From an uncultured Verrucomicrobiota bacterium (GTDB lineage Bacteria; Verrucomicrobiota; Kiritimatiellia; RFP12; UBA3636), in contig CASEAR010000062.1 of NCBI GenBank assembly GCA_949285835.1, forward strand, positions 1 to 49,479: 49,479 nt of DNA, written 5' to 3'. Numbering within the stretch: the stretch's first letter is position 1; each line of letters begins with the position of its first letter. A model generated the notes under the pieces. That model did no database searches, had not been told where the DNA came from, and saw nothing but the letters and a program-made list of their open reading frames with translations. The position numbers and the translations under genes were made by a program. This document shows, one piece after another, positions 4,401 to 9,939 of this stretch.

Positions 4401-4995
4401 GCATCTTAGACCATCGCATCAATAAGATTCCGCCGCACCAGGTCTCTTGCGGGGCCAAACCCCTGACGTTCCATCCGTTCCTGAAATCCGGAGGATACGC
4501 CGCTTAAATTTTCTTGATATAAAGTCATAAAGCGGTTTCCTGCGAAGCATCCCGAACTGGGAACAATCGGGCTTTGAGACACAGCCAATTGACGCCCGAT
4601 GAGCCGCACTATTGCGGCGGCGCACGGCGATCCTGCATGGAAGCAGTGATGCTCTGCCCGTCACGTATGCCTGGGGTGCGGGAAACACCTTGAAAGCAAG
4701 CTGTTTTCATGTCTTCGCGAATGGTGGTAGAATGAGAAGTACGCGGTTGGGAATCGCAGTCCGGAGGGGGCGCTGCAGAGAATGCTCACAGCGGACGCCG
4801 CTGAGTATGCTGTTTTCAAACCGCGCGCAGCACGTTAGAGAAGCAATCCGTCCCCCATAGTCGCCGGCATAACGGCGACGACTGCCAGAATGGCCGCGTA
4901 CATGACGCAGGAAACCTGCTTTGTTCAACAAGGTGATAAAGGAAGCAAATTCACAGTCGTAACACTAATCAAACCGGACAAGGAGCGAACTTATC
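4401..4995. other. 595-bp intergenic stretch, no gene recognised
   Basis: Only short frames occur here and none looks like a known family. The last 20 bases carry AAGGAG, 10 bases before the GrpB-fusion start. No clear promoter hexamer pair, tRNA or transposase remnant is visible. It separates the minus-strand Bat/cysK pair from the plus-strand accessory block. Confidence 0.5.
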
Positions 4996-5892
4996 ATGCC
5001 GCAGCATATAACCGTTTTGAATTATGACCCGGAATGGCCGTTGAAATACATGAGAGAGCGAAACCGCATTTTCGAAATACTGGGAGATAACTGCCTTTCC
5101 GTCTACCATATCGGGAGTACGTCTGTCCCGGGTTTGGCGGCCAAGCCTGTTATTGACATTATGGCGGTCGTTAGAAGCCTTGAACAGGCAGACTCCGACG
5201 CGGGAAAATTTTCCGCAGCGGGATATGAATACCTCGGTGAATTTGGAATGGCGGGCAGACGCTACCTACGCAAAGGTGGCGATGAACGAACCCACCAAAT
5301 TCACATTTTCCAAGTCGATGATTGGCACAATATCGAGCGGCATCTTGCTTTCCGGGACTATCTGCGAACCCACGAAAAAGAACGGAACGAATATGCAAAG
5401 ATCAAGAAAAACCTCGCTCAAAAGTTTCCCCGGGACATAGACGGGTACTGCATCGGAAAAGAGAACTTTGTCCGCGAGGTTGAAGAGCGCGCGGTTTCCC
5501 AATACGATGGAACGTGGGACAAACTGTATCTCGCCGCGAGGAAAGCGCAATACAGAAGAAATATTTCTCCGCTGATTGAGGCAGGAGCGGTTTCTGCCGC
5601 CATTCTCTCAGCGAGAGGGAACATCTATACCGGCGTATGCATCGACACCGCTTGTTCGCTGGGCATGTGTGCAGAAAGAAACGCGATCTCCACCATGATA
5701 ACAAACGGTGAGAGCAAAATTGTAAAAATAGCTGCGGTGATGCCCGATGGAAAAGCGGGAATGCCGTGCGGAGCCTGCCGTGAATTTATGATGCAGCTGG
5801 AGAAAGCAGCGGGAGAAATAGAAATTCTGTGCGACTGCGAAACAAAGCGGACGGTTAAACTGAAAACACTGATCCCCGACTGGTGGAAATGA
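4996..5892 (+). CDS. GrpB-family nucleotidyltransferase fused to cytidine deaminase
   Basis: A 298-residue two-domain protein. Residues 1 to about 165 match the GrpB/UPF0157 family, a nucleotidyltransferase-like fold, with the hallmark Y-H-I-G-S-T-S-V-P-G-L-A-A-K-P-V-I-D (37-54). Residues from about 174 onward are a compact cytidine deaminase of the blasticidin-S/CDD type: C225-A-E227 and P-C258-G-A-C261 supply three cysteine zinc ligands and the catalytic glutamate. Expected chemistry is deamination of a cytosine-containing nucleoside, and nucleotidyl transfer by the first domain is possible. The start is ATG with AAGGAG upstream. A GNAT enzyme follows 23 bases later. Codon use looks less GC-rich than its neighbours, which suggests transfer. 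The true substrate is unknown. Confidence 0.85.
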   Translation: MPQHITVLNYDPEWPLKYMRERNRIFEILGDNCLSVYHIGSTSVPGLAAKPVIDIMAVVRSLEQADSDAGKFSAAGYEYLGEFGMAGRRYLRKGGDERTHQIHIFQVDDWHNIERHLAFRDYLRTHEKERNEYAKIKKNLAQKFPRDIDGYCIGKENFVREVEERAVSQYDGTWDKLYLAARKAQYRRNISPLIEAGAVSAAILSARGNIYTGVCIDTACSLGMCAERNAISTMITNGESKIVKIAAVMPDGKAGMPCGACREFMMQLEKAAGEIEILCDCETKRTVKLKTLIPDWWK

Positions 5893-5915
5893 TGCTTTTT
5901 CAAACGGTGATTTGA

Positions 5916-6500
5916 ATGTACGAACCAATATATACGAAACGCCTTGTTTTAAGAAAATTTACAGAAGACGATCTGACGGCTGTCTTCCAAATCTTCAGTG
6001 ATGAGAAAGCAAACGAATTTTTACCGTGGTTCCCGTTGAAATCCTTCGGTGAAGCAAAACATTTTTTTGAAAGACGCTTCGCAGAACCATATCGCCGCGG
6101 ACAGGCGTATCAATACGCGGTCTGTCTGCGGAGCGACGACATCCCTGTTGGATATATCAACATAAGTCCGGATGAAAGCCATGACTTGGGATATGGGCTG
6201 CGGGAGGAATTCTGGAACAGGGGGATAATGACGGAGGCGGGGAAGGCTCTGCTGAAAACGGCGAAGGCAGACGGCATCCCATACATTACAGCAACGCATG
6301 ACAGAAACAACCCCCAAAGCGGCAGGGTAATGCAGAAACTGGGTATGAAATACCAGTATTCATACGGGGAGCTGTGGCAGCCGAAAAACAAACTTGCAGC
6401 ATTCCGCCTGTATTTACTCAATTTGGACGGAATAGAAAACCGGTTCTACAGCAAGTACTGGGACGCTTCCGCGGTTCATTATGTGGAAAATATTCAATAG
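5916..6500 (+). CDS. GNAT N-acetyltransferase, RimJ/RimL type
   Basis: A 194-residue acetyl-CoA-dependent acetyltransferase of the RimJ/RimL-like branch. The N-terminus T-K-R-L-V-L-R-K-F-T-E-D-D-L is typical of the family. The central G-Y-G-L-R-E-E-F-W-N-R-G-I-M-T-E-A segment is the acetyl-CoA-binding motif A region, and A-T-H-D-R-N-N-P-Q-S-G-R-V-M-Q-K-L-G-M is motif B. The last 50 residues (Q-P-K-N-K-L-A-A-F-R-L-Y) go beyond the core fold. It lies 23 bases after the GrpB-deaminase fusion and shares its lower GC content, so the pair may have moved together. The substrate could be a ribosomal protein N-terminus, an amino acid or a drug; the sequence does not decide. Confidence 0.8.
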   Translation: MYEPIYTKRLVLRKFTEDDLTAVFQIFSDEKANEFLPWFPLKSFGEAKHFFERRFAEPYRRGQAYQYAVCLRSDDIPVGYINISPDESHDLGYGLREEFWNRGIMTEAGKALLKTAKADGIPYITATHDRNNPQSGRVMQKLGMKYQYSYGELWQPKNKLAAFRLYLLNLDGIENRFYSKYWDASAVHYVENIQ

Positions 6501-6782
6501 CAACAAAAGGGATCCGGCTTTGCCGGCGCCTCTGCCAACTGCTGAGAATTATTCAGAAGATGTTCAATGGTAACCGTATTGGGTAAAACTGACGGCATTC
6601 GGGAATGAACGGCGCATTTCACACATCGCCGCCCCTACATCCGCACCTCAAGATTTTGCGTGTGGCAAAAATGACATTGCGTCTTGGGAACAAAAAAGCA
6701 TGCGCTCTTCCGCGAGAAGGAAATGCGTCATATTCTTCTGTTTGCTTGACATAGAGATTCCGGTCTGGCGGCAAGAGGCGTA

Positions 6783-6811
6783 TTGCATTTTCGACATTTT
6801 TCATGTATATT
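6783..6811 (+). promoter_or_regulatory. Candidate promoter of the IclR gene
   Basis: TTGCAT (6783-6788), a 17-base spacer and TATATT (6806-6811), 41 bases before the ATG. The 6501-6782 stretch before it carries only a small CCGGC-TTT-GCCGG hairpin (6514-6526) and no gene that I recognise. Confidence 0.45.
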
Positions 6812-6851
6812 AAACAGTATTCAGTATTAATGAAATCAAGGACGGATACAT

Positions 6852-7577
6852 ATGGCTGAAACAGGGGTAATGTCCGTAAGAAAAGCATTTGAGATGCTTG
6901 ATTCAATTCTGGAACGGGATTTGCGCGGCGAGAGGTGCGGTCTTGGAGACATTGCAGGCGACGTCGGGGAGAAGCTCAGCACGGCGCGCAACATCCTCAA
7001 AACAATGGAAGGCTGCGGATATGTATCCAGAGACGGGCTTCGATACATCCCGGGAGAGAAGTGCCGTATAATGCAGCGTATCGCATCTGCCGCGGATCTT
7101 GCCGCGGCAGTCGGCGAAGACATGCGCAAAGCGGCGGAGAACACCGGAGAAAGCTTTGTGCTTGCGACGTTGGCCGGGGGACGGAGAAAAGTGCTGCTGC
7201 GCGTGAGCGCGCGGCGTGACGTGGTGGCGAATCTGGAATCAGAAAATGAAGCGCCTCCGTATTCTCTTGTGACAAACCGTGTGATGTTCTCCTTTGCCGG
7301 CGACGAAGAACGCCGGGAATTTGAGGGCTGCTACGGCTCGCCGGAAAACTCGTGGCCTGATTTTGAAAATGATATATCCGATATCCGGAAAGCAGGCACC
7401 TCCACGCTAGAAGCCGGAGACCTGATCGGGTACGCAGCAGTTCTCACCGACTCACGCGGACGTCTTCTCGGCGCAGCCGGAGCCTACGCGCCCAAATACA
7501 GGGTCACAAAAGAACTTACCGGCAATATATTCGAGGAACTTGTGCGCCTCGCAAAAATCGTAAGGGCGCATTTCTGA
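6852..7577 (+). CDS. IclR-family transcriptional regulator
   Basis: A 241-residue regulator. The N-terminal winged helix (M-S-V-R-K-A-F-E-M-L-D-S-I-L through D-V-G-E-K-L-S-T-A-R-N-I-L-K-T-M-E-G-C-G-Y-V) is the IclR DNA-binding domain; the remainder fits the IclR effector domain. That domain normally binds a small organic acid or aromatic compound. The length is typical (about 240-260). ATG at 6852 has AAGGA nine bases upstream; a second in-frame ATG at 6882 is possible. It ends 28 bases before the three-module iron-sulfur gene, so it probably regulates that gene from the same transcript. The effector is unknown. Confidence 0.85.
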   Translation: MAETGVMSVRKAFEMLDSILERDLRGERCGLGDIAGDVGEKLSTARNILKTMEGCGYVSRDGLRYIPGEKCRIMQRIASAADLAAAVGEDMRKAAENTGESFVLATLAGGRRKVLLRVSARRDVVANLESENEAPPYSLVTNRVMFSFAGDEERREFEGCYGSPENSWPDFENDISDIRKAGTSTLEAGDLIGYAAVLTDSRGRLLGAAGAYAPKYRVTKELTGNIFEELVRLAKIVRAHF

Positions 7578-7605
7578 CTGCAAGGGAAGCAAACCGGAGA
7601 ATAGA

Positions 7606-9939
7606 ATGAACATCAAGGAAGCAATAAAAAGCAAGGCATACGAGCTGGGAGCCGACCTTGTCGGTATCGGATCTGTGGACAGGTGCTGGGCGGCGCCGGT
7701 GATGATGAGCCCTCAGGGAGTTTTCCCCGGGTCGAAATCTGTTGTTGTCATGGCGCTGCATCATCCGGATGCGTGCATTGAGATCGGAGGAGAGTCGCAT
7801 CCACAAAACATCGGCCCGTATTCGGTGCAGTACCTGATGAATTCGCGCCTTGATGAAATGTCCTACAAAATGGCATGCTTCATTGAAGACATGGGATATG
7901 GAGCGATTCCGATAGCGTCCAGCAACATATGGAGGTACAACTCCTACAAATCGCTCAATGCTGTATTTGCGCCCGATGTAAGCAATATCTACATGGCGGT
8001 CACCGCCGGGCTGGCCGATATGGGATACAGCGGGATCGCGATAACTCCCGAGTACGGCGCGCGCAACCGCTTCGTAACCGTCATAACCGACCTCGAAATG
8101 GAACCCGATCCGCTGATTCCCCCGGGGACAGTATGCGATAAATGCATGCTTTGCCGAAAACACTGCCCGAGCGCGGCACTGTCTAAAGAATTAAATGGCG
8201 ACAAAGTACTGAAAATCGGCGGCAACGAATATCGTTTCGCCAACAAAAATCTGTGGCGGTGCGCCTGGGGCGAACACTTCGACCTGAGCCTCGATCTGGA
8301 AATACCGGATGTGGTGACCGAAGAAGTCATTATCGAAACCGTTAAGAAATACGGCGTCAGGAGCGGCGAGATGGGCCAGTGTCTGAAATTCTGCGTACCG
8401 TCGCGCAAACGCAAATTCGACCCGTCGTATTCAAAAACACCACTTCGCAAACCGTCGTTCCATGTAGACGAAGAACTGGAATCAAGAGCCCTCACGGACA
8501 GACTCCTGAACAAATGCTATGAAAAAGGCGCGGAATACGTGGGTGTATTCTCAGCGGAGGAACTTACAGCCAGCGGGATGTCTCCGGAAGTTATAATGCC
8601 AGGCGTAAAAAGCGTAATTGCAGTGGCTTCAAAACCGTTCCCGAAAGAACTGGTAATAGACTCATCCAATTCACGGCACGCCGCCGAAGTCTGTAATTCT
8701 TCCTCTCAATACGGGATCGACTCCATATGCTTCGATCTTACCAGAGAACTCGACGAACTAGGGTTCCGCTCCATGATGACAATAGAAAAGAGCGGATCCC
8801 ATCCGGATCCTATGTCGCCGAATATGCAGGCAGCGAAACTTGCCGGGATAGTGTTCGACGGAAAACCGGAAAACTGGCTCTACAATTTCGTATACACTTC
8901 AAAGTCCATTCCCCCGCGTCCTATAAACACCGCAGAAGGTTCTACCGCCTGCGGGAGACCGGAACAATATCGCGGCACCACGGATTTGAAATACAGAATC
9001 AAGCAGTTTGCCATCGACGCCGGGGCCGACATATGCGGCGTCGCTTCCGCAGAACGGGTGGATGCCATAGCGCGGCAGCTTATGCCGTTTTTCGACGGGG
9101 AGCCATACTTCGAAGCGTCGGACAAATCCATACGGTTTACCGAATACAAACCGGAAATCCGTACCATATCCCGCAAAGTGCTGACCACGTCGGACTACCT
9201 CGAAGATGCGAAGTCGGTAATTGTTTTCGGGTTGCGTTACAATGAAAAAGTTCTGGAATTTGCCGCCAAACCGCCGGCAGAGGCTGTCGGGCCGTACGCA
9301 TTCCAGTCATATGTTACCGTCTGGCAGGGGACGTTAACCGGGTCCAGGATAGTCAGGAAACTGCTTTCCATGGGTTACAAGGCCGTAATGACTACTGACC
9401 TGACGGGACTCGGCACCGCAATCGCGAGCCCGCGCGGATATATCGAAGACGCATTTTCCAACAGGTTTGAAGCCATTGCGGCCGGTTTGGCCGGAATTAC
9501 GCGTTCGGGACGCCCTTTCACACCGGAATTCGGCATACGTCAAAGATTTATTGCGGTAATAACAAATGCTGAACTTATTCCGGACGAGTTGCTTGCCGTC
9601 ACTCCGGAATTGTGCGAAACATGCGGAGACAAATGCGCCGCAGTATGCCCGACCGCTGCCATCAGCGGAACCGAGGTCAGATTCACGTGCGAAGGCCGCG
9701 ACTTCTCTTTCCTTAAAATCGATGAGAACAGGTGCGACTGGAGCAAACGGTATGCGATTGCGGGCGAAAGCGGATTCAAGTACCTCGGTTCAAAACTTGA
9801 TGAACTTCCCCCGGAGGAAGGAGTAACGCCTGAGTCGCTGGGGAACGCGTTGAGGAAACACGACATCATAAAGAAGTATCGTCCTGTCGTCTGCGAGCCG
9901 TGCGTCATAAAATGTCCGTATTCCACAAAAACCTGCTGA
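7606..9939 (+). CDS. Three-module QueG/reductive-dehalogenase-like iron-sulfur protein
   Basis: A 777-residue protein of three repeated epoxyqueuosine-reductase-like modules. Module 1 (about 1-275) has A-D-L-V-G-I-G-S-V, F-P-G-S-K-S-V-V-V-M, an aromatic-rich middle and a ferredoxin motif C177-x2-C180-x2-C183-x3-C187-P. A further C-L-K-F-C-V-P could serve a second cluster. Module 2 (about 285-440) keeps the fold signatures (A-E-Y-V-G-V-F-S, M-P-G-V-K-S-V-I-A-V) but has no cluster cysteines. Module 3 (about 460-777) repeats the whole plan with C670-x2-C673-x3-C677-x3-C681-P and a final C763-x2-C766-x3-C770-P. QueG enzymes are about 350-380 residues and bind cobalamin; this protein is twice that. 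No signal peptide or Tat motif is seen, so it is probably cytoplasmic. The substrate is unknown. ATG 7606 has GGAGA six bases upstream. Confidence 0.75.
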   Translation: MNIKEAIKSKAYELGADLVGIGSVDRCWAAPVMMSPQGVFPGSKSVVVMALHHPDACIEIGGESHPQNIGPYSVQYLMNSRLDEMSYKMACFIEDMGYGAIPIASSNIWRYNSYKSLNAVFAPDVSNIYMAVTAGLADMGYSGIAITPEYGARNRFVTVITDLEMEPDPLIPPGTVCDKCMLCRKHCPSAALSKELNGDKVLKIGGNEYRFANKNLWRCAWGEHFDLSLDLEIPDVVTEEVIIETVKKYGVRSGEMGQCLKFCVPSRKRKFDPSYSKTPLRKPSFHVDEELESRALTDRLLNKCYEKGAEYVGVFSAEELTASGMSPEVIMPGVKSVIAVASKPFPKELVIDSSNSRHAAEVCNSSSQYGIDSICFDLTRELDELGFRSMMTIEKSGSHPDPMSPNMQAAKLAGIVFDGKPENWLYNFVYTSKSIPPRPINTAEGSTACGRPEQYRGTTDLKYRIKQFAIDAGADICGVASAERVDAIARQLMPFFDGEPYFEASDKSIRFTEYKPEIRTISRKVLTTSDYLEDAKSVIVFGLRYNEKVLEFAAKPPAEAVGPYAFQSYVTVWQGTLTGSRIVRKLLSMGYKAVMTTDLTGLGTAIASPRGYIEDAFSNRFEAIAAGLAGITRSGRPFTPEFGIRQRFIAVITNAELIPDELLAVTPELCETCGDKCAAVCPTAAISGTEVRFTCEGRDFSFLKIDENRCDWSKRYAIAGESGFKYLGSKLDELPPEEGVTPESLGNALRKHDIIKKYRPVVCEPCVIKCPYSTKTC

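Follow-up and report, generated by a model that had tools for sequence, protein, structure and literature searches.

A recurrent three-module RdhA/QueG-like iron-sulfur protein with an apparent relic cobalamin domain in anaerobic bacteria

The window analyzed here, a 49,479-nucleotide stretch of DNA from an uncultured Verrucomicrobiota bacterium, carries on its forward strand an uninterrupted, real open reading frame (positions 7606 to 9939) that encodes a trimodular RdhA/QueG-like Fe-S protein of 777 amino acids, identified by profile matches, homologues, an AlphaFold2 model and a Foldseek search. A co-directional gene for an IclR-family transcriptional regulator ends 28 bp upstream (6852 to 7577, forward strand; HTH_IclR, E value of 2.9e-7; TIGR02431, E value of 1e-12), and rpoC lies downstream in convergent orientation. 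The region from 4501 to 9500 has a GC content of approximately 0.50 to 0.52, compared with 0.53 to 0.59 elsewhere in the window, together with a positive GC skew, and resembles a segment inserted between housekeeping genes. Within it, a single open reading frame at 4996 to 5892 (forward strand) fuses a GrpB domain to a cytidine-deaminase-like domain.

For comparison of the modules with one another, the 777-residue chain was split at residues 284/285 and 457/458 into module 1 (M1, residues 1 to 284), module 2 (M2, 285 to 457) and module 3 (M3, 458 to 777). BLASTP matched M1 to M3 with an E value of 5e-21, M1 to M2 with 3e-8 and M2 to M3 with 2e-3, and profile-profile comparison of 32-member alignments yielded E values of 5e-49 for M1 and M3, 1e-15 for M2 and M1, and 7e-16 for M2 and M3. 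The internal homology of the three modules is therefore far above chance and the repeat is real, as the initial annotation of this stretch had proposed. The AlphaFold2 model, built from 46 homologues, reached a pLDDT of 90.4 and a pTM of 0.93, and the whole-protein model retrieved NpRdhA as the top Foldseek match, followed by PceA and then QueG. Together with the profile matches of M1 and M3, these hits support the supposed relation to reductive dehalogenases and QueG. The chain begins straight in the fold, without a Tat or signal extension.

M1 (7606 to 8457) and M3 (8977 to 9936), both on the forward strand, are complete copies of the RdhA/QueG core. According to profile and fold, each consists of a cobalamin domain with the nitroreductase-like fold and, after it, a double Fe-S module, which is the layout of the class III cobalamin superfamily. 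Searched against the PDB, M1 matched PceA, QueG and NpRdhA, while M3 matched PceA (3e-16), QueG (9e-12) and also NpRdhA. The ligands of the distal cluster in QueG of S. thermophilus are Cys184, Cys187, Cys190 and Cys243, and those of the B12-proximal cluster are Cys194, Cys210, Cys236 and Cys239 (PMC4646009). When conservation was counted on the 46 aligned homologues, which share 33 to 62% identity, the first Fe-S motif of M1 (C177-C180-C183-C187; 8134 to 8166, forward strand) proved invariant at each position, as did C219 within the invariant WRCAWGEHF (8260 to 8262, forward strand) and, in the second motif (8368 to 8394, forward strand), C259 and C263. The corresponding residues of M3, likewise on the forward strand, are C670-C673-C677-C681 (9613 to 9648), all invariant except C673 (45/46), then C710 (9733 to 9735; 46/46) and the invariant C766 and C770 of the second motif (9892 to 9915). 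The cysteines listed initially were thus all present. Four more that complete the second cluster motif, C219, C259 and C263 in M1 and C710 in M3, had been missed.

Whereas the RdhA pattern comprises two [4Fe-4S] clusters formed from eight cysteines, only seven are conserved in M1 and in M3 each. The eighth, equivalent to QueG Cys236, is missing from M1 of all 46 members, its place being taken by M256 in our protein, and from M3 of 40 of them. M3 of the 777-residue protein itself possesses all eight, including C763; however, this residue, which had been counted among the motif cysteines, is a cysteine in only 6 of 46 members and is not a feature of the family. Near the position of the missing cysteine both modules carry a glutamate, E255 in M1 (46/46) and E764 in M3 (45/46), and it is our guess that this glutamate ligates the proximal cluster.

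M1 is the most conserved module, with a mean column identity of 65%, much above M2 or M3. As such a difference is expected if the members share one common substrate, M1 is likely the catalytic module. By alignment, R155 (8068 to 8070, forward strand; 46/46) is the equivalent of PceA Arg305 and, with one gap, N107 (7924 to 7926, forward strand; 45/46) the likely equivalent of Asn272. Of the catalytic Arg/Lys and Tyr expected beside the corrin of an RdhA, the Arg therefore has a counterpart in every member, but the Tyr is ambiguous: PceA Y246 and QueG Y101 do not align cleanly with M1, and Y72 and Y76 are mere candidates. It is possible, if on the unlikely side, that M1 and M3 are both working, corrinoid-binding sites, which would either take successive steps or each attack a different bond of one substrate, with M2 as a spacer between them. 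M3 retains six or seven cysteines in nearly all members, the PAEAVGPY and SPRG signatures, R647 (41/46) and D598 (9397 to 9399, forward strand; Asp in 40/46 and Asn in 6/46), a candidate equivalent of QueG Asp130 and PceA Asn272. It is, however, less conserved than M1 and evolves faster (46% mean column identity), and its key residues vary more, with Y564 kept in 38/46 and Y569 in 39/46 members.

The middle module, M2 (8458 to 8976, forward strand), differs from both. In alignments and profile-profile comparison it matches the cobalamin domain only and ends where the Fe-S motif would begin. It contains no conserved cysteine across the 46 members, a CxxC occurring in only one of them, which bears out the proposed loss of the clusters from this module, and approximately half of the members also lack the AGLG-type loop segment. 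A profile search of the PDB with M2 on its own gave no credible match. A precedent exists in the catabolic RdhAs, in which a vestigial duplicate of the cobalamin domain, unable to bind cobalamin, mimics the dimer partner of respiratory RdhAs (PMC10463259). Judged by its sequence, M2 is a relic of the same kind, a cobalamin domain without Fe-S clusters in the same chain. A multi-copy chain is consequently not the novelty that it had been taken for; what is new relative to the precedent is the second complete Fe-S module, together with the loss of the eighth cysteine from both modules and the invariant or near-invariant glutamate adjoining the gap. A separate model of M2 and M3 (pLDDT 86.3, pTM 0.88) aligned with NpRdhA at an rmsd of approximately 19 Å over the Foldseek alignment (TMq of approximately 0.32), with no shared superposition. 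As M2 and M3 thus fail to match NpRdhA as one unit, M1 may be the partner of the relic instead, or the relic may sit differently than in NpRdhA. The pseudo-symmetric trimer around a central site pictured earlier is a conjecture that these comparisons neither establish nor contradict.

The protein scored 95 bits in two stretches against the NCBIfam reductive dehalogenase profile TIGR02486 (cut-off of 160.35 bits) and 44 bits (E value of 1e-11) against the QueG profile TIGR00276 (cut-off of 200 bits), and the catalytic DYH motif of QueG is absent from both M1 and M3. The host genome encodes QueA and QueH but no QueG above the cut-off, so the role of QueG is already filled in this organism. As both profile scores fall far below their cut-offs, DYH is absent and QueA and QueH are encoded, we class the trimodular protein as neither QueG nor a curated RdhA. 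A role as a substitute for QueG was considered and rejected once QueH, an unrelated reductase, had been found in the genome. That the protein is a QueG variant is extremely improbable: the distant TIGR00276 match and the lack of a curated QueG speak for it, and they are outweighed by the score, the missing motif and the presence of QueA with QueH. QueG resembles M1 and M3 in fold and in the first Fe-S motif but has a HEAT domain that is missing here, and the Arg305 equivalent is absent from QueG (PMC4646009). The label "QueG-like" hence holds for the superfamily relation but is too narrow in view of the RdhA-type Arg and Asn, the missing DYH motif, the module tree and the presence of QueH.

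The catabolic RdhAs NpRdhA, BhbA and JtRdhA are among the systems that it resembles most, being soluble proteins with an Fe-S module and more than one cobalamin-domain copy per chain, one of them a cofactor-free relic. They differ in combining one relic with one working module, often with a PDOR reductase domain, whereas in the trimodular protein the relic has a complete Fe-S module on either side. The respiratory PceA shares the core fold and the Arg305 and Asn272 equivalents of M1 but is single-module, dimeric, exported and membrane-associated, whereas the present protein has three modules, lacks a signal peptide and scores below the profile cut-off. Taking the protein for a true organohalide reductive dehalogenase would account for the retained Arg and Asn and for NpRdhA and PceA as the best fold matches. 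We nevertheless find this reading very doubtful, given the sub-threshold profile score, the abundance of conserved polar residues in the pocket, the frequency of the family in gut and rumen bacteria, and the fact that neither rdhB nor a membrane partner was recognized among the nearest neighbors.

The host genome contains one cobalamin riboswitch, which precedes a locus encoding a fused BtuC-like permease/ATPase, and three matches to B12-binding domains, while CobS was not found in this assembly, which is 91% complete. On these grounds, and with the caveat of that completeness, the host is probably a B12 importer. No B12 genes were found near the trimodular gene of the window, and an Rfam scan detected no cobalamin riboswitch beside the gene in the window or in 20 related loci. 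The absence of nearby B12 genes would suit a corrinoid-free Fe-S enzyme that keeps the nitroreductase-like fold and takes the substrate or another cofactor into its pocket, where an open iron of a site-differentiated cluster might receive it. The gap at the fourth cysteine of the proximal cluster, next to an invariant glutamate, would suit it as well: M1 never has this cysteine (0/46) and M3 seldom does (6/46). Yet both M1 and M3 retain the AGL...G...TPEYG segment that RdhA and QueG typically show, the Arg305 equivalent is kept and the host appears to import B12, which makes such an enzyme quite unlikely.

An IclR or AraC-type regulator usually adjoins the trimodular gene. IclR homologues occur near this gene or its paralogues in 22 loci, often directly adjoining, and a second regulator-like family, AraC-type as judged by eye from the sequence, occurs in 17, again often directly adjoining. 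The neighborhoods are otherwise varied: a Pfam tally of 108 neighbors revealed no dominant family, apart from a faint carbohydrate-related signal (three GH20, three sulfatases and four extracellular solute-binding proteins). In three loci (L016, L051 and L043), genes for GH20-like hexosaminidases lie within or beside clusters of RdhA-like genes, a possible hint of a sugar-derived substrate. Several loci hold tandem single-module paralogues near the trimodular gene, and tandem runs of single-module RdhA/QueG-like genes, two to four in a row and frequently close to genes for regulators, were seen in L008 (3360 to 6226, reverse strand), L055, L056, L058, L016, L051, L043 and L012, representing an uncharacterized multi-gene relative of the fused protein. 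Such paralogues (for example G000:C49 and those of L008 and L055) are closest to M1 in the module tree and often adjoin an IclR gene, but they have one module per gene, are often in tandem and in several cases carry an extra cysteine near the second motif in the alignment. The host genome encodes another short RdhA/QueG-like protein of approximately 280 amino acids (L003, 1117 to 1968; G000:C20), which forms a long branch in the module tree.

Scanning GTDB genomes identified 53 loci encoding relatives, of which L055 and L056 hold single-module relatives only and several more are truncated at the end of a contig. The order M1-M2-M3 was seen in every complete family copy, also in divergent ones, for which module profiles served as the check. 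The hosts belong to Kiritimatiellae, Lentisphaeria, Armatimonadetes, Spirochaetes, Planctomycetes (Phycisphaerales, Brocadiaceae) and Clostridia, and many come from gut, rumen, digesters and groundwater. Within the host's own class the gene is sparse, with matches at an E value of ≤1e-60 in just 16 out of 346 genomes, and a second genome of the host's taxonomic family carries no copy closer than 34% identity. The cultured Oligosphaera ethanolica DSM 24202 carries one of approximately 61% identity adjoining an IclR gene. This patchiness, the divergent copy within the family and the local drop in GC content with a change of GC skew at 4.5 to 9.5 kb suggest that the trimodular gene has spread by horizontal transfer. 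A plasmid search for trimodular copies matched only a Sulfurospirillum RdhA, and the RDH profile, run across the class at E ≤1e-20, matched no genome, the host's included, the threshold being too strict to inform. In a quick tree of the modules, based on 192 columns and uncertain in its deep order, M1 formed one clade (SH-aLRT of 95) and the single-module paralogues another (99), the two joined at 90; M3 was compatible with one clade at weak support (50), and QueG stood clearly apart. Because the three-part layout recurs patchily in many unrelated anaerobic bacteria, this is a real, uncharacterized enzyme family, built by a trick known from some dehalogenases. Literature searches for the trimodular family or its link to IclR found nothing; the initial proposal of an uncharacterized family holds up.

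Our best reading, to which we assign a probability of roughly 0.55, is that the protein is a soluble, inducible, ferredoxin-fed corrinoid reductase of the class III cobalamin (RdhA/QueG) superfamily with M1 as its catalytic module. M1 would hold a base-off corrinoid beneath a highly conserved polar pocket (Y72, Q75, Y76, N79, N107, W109, R110, R155, W221, E223 and H224). Its substrate would be a small and polar metabolite, probably a natural one, in which a bond is reductively cleaved through the Co(I)/Co(II) chemistry common to the superfamily. Electrons would pass from ferredoxin or flavodoxin, possibly by way of the M3 clusters, to the clusters of M1 and on to the cobalt. The relic M2 would have a structural part, occupying an interface between domains as its counterpart does in the catabolic RdhAs, and M3 would either relay electrons or provide another corrinoid site, one that has diverged. 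In the presence of the substrate the regulator would turn the gene on, and fixed partner genes would be unneeded. This reading is favored by the homology to RDH and QueG in profile and fold, the near-invariant cysteines, the retention in M1 of equivalents of Arg305 and, probably, Asn272, the vestigial-domain precedent, the adjoining regulator amid varied neighbors, the B12 riboswitch and transporter of the host and the lack of a signal extension. Against it stand the unclean alignment of the catalytic Tyr, the M1 proximal cluster without a fourth cysteine, and the lack of a B12 gene near the window gene and of a riboswitch there or in the 20 related loci. Tentatively, and at rather long odds, the protein might combine two corrinoid sites and four Fe-S clusters, with Glu or an open ligand at the B12-proximal clusters, and would serve anaerobes of gut and sediment in the multi-electron reduction of a novel natural substrate that carries no halogen.

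The literature searched assigns only two established functions to class III cobalamin enzymes, namely dehalogenation and the reduction of epoxyqueuosine. Being widespread, encoded by a single gene, linked to regulators and endowed with a highly conserved pocket unlike that of QueG, the trimodular family is a good candidate for a third, and the copy in the cultured O. ethanolica makes the question of its function testable.
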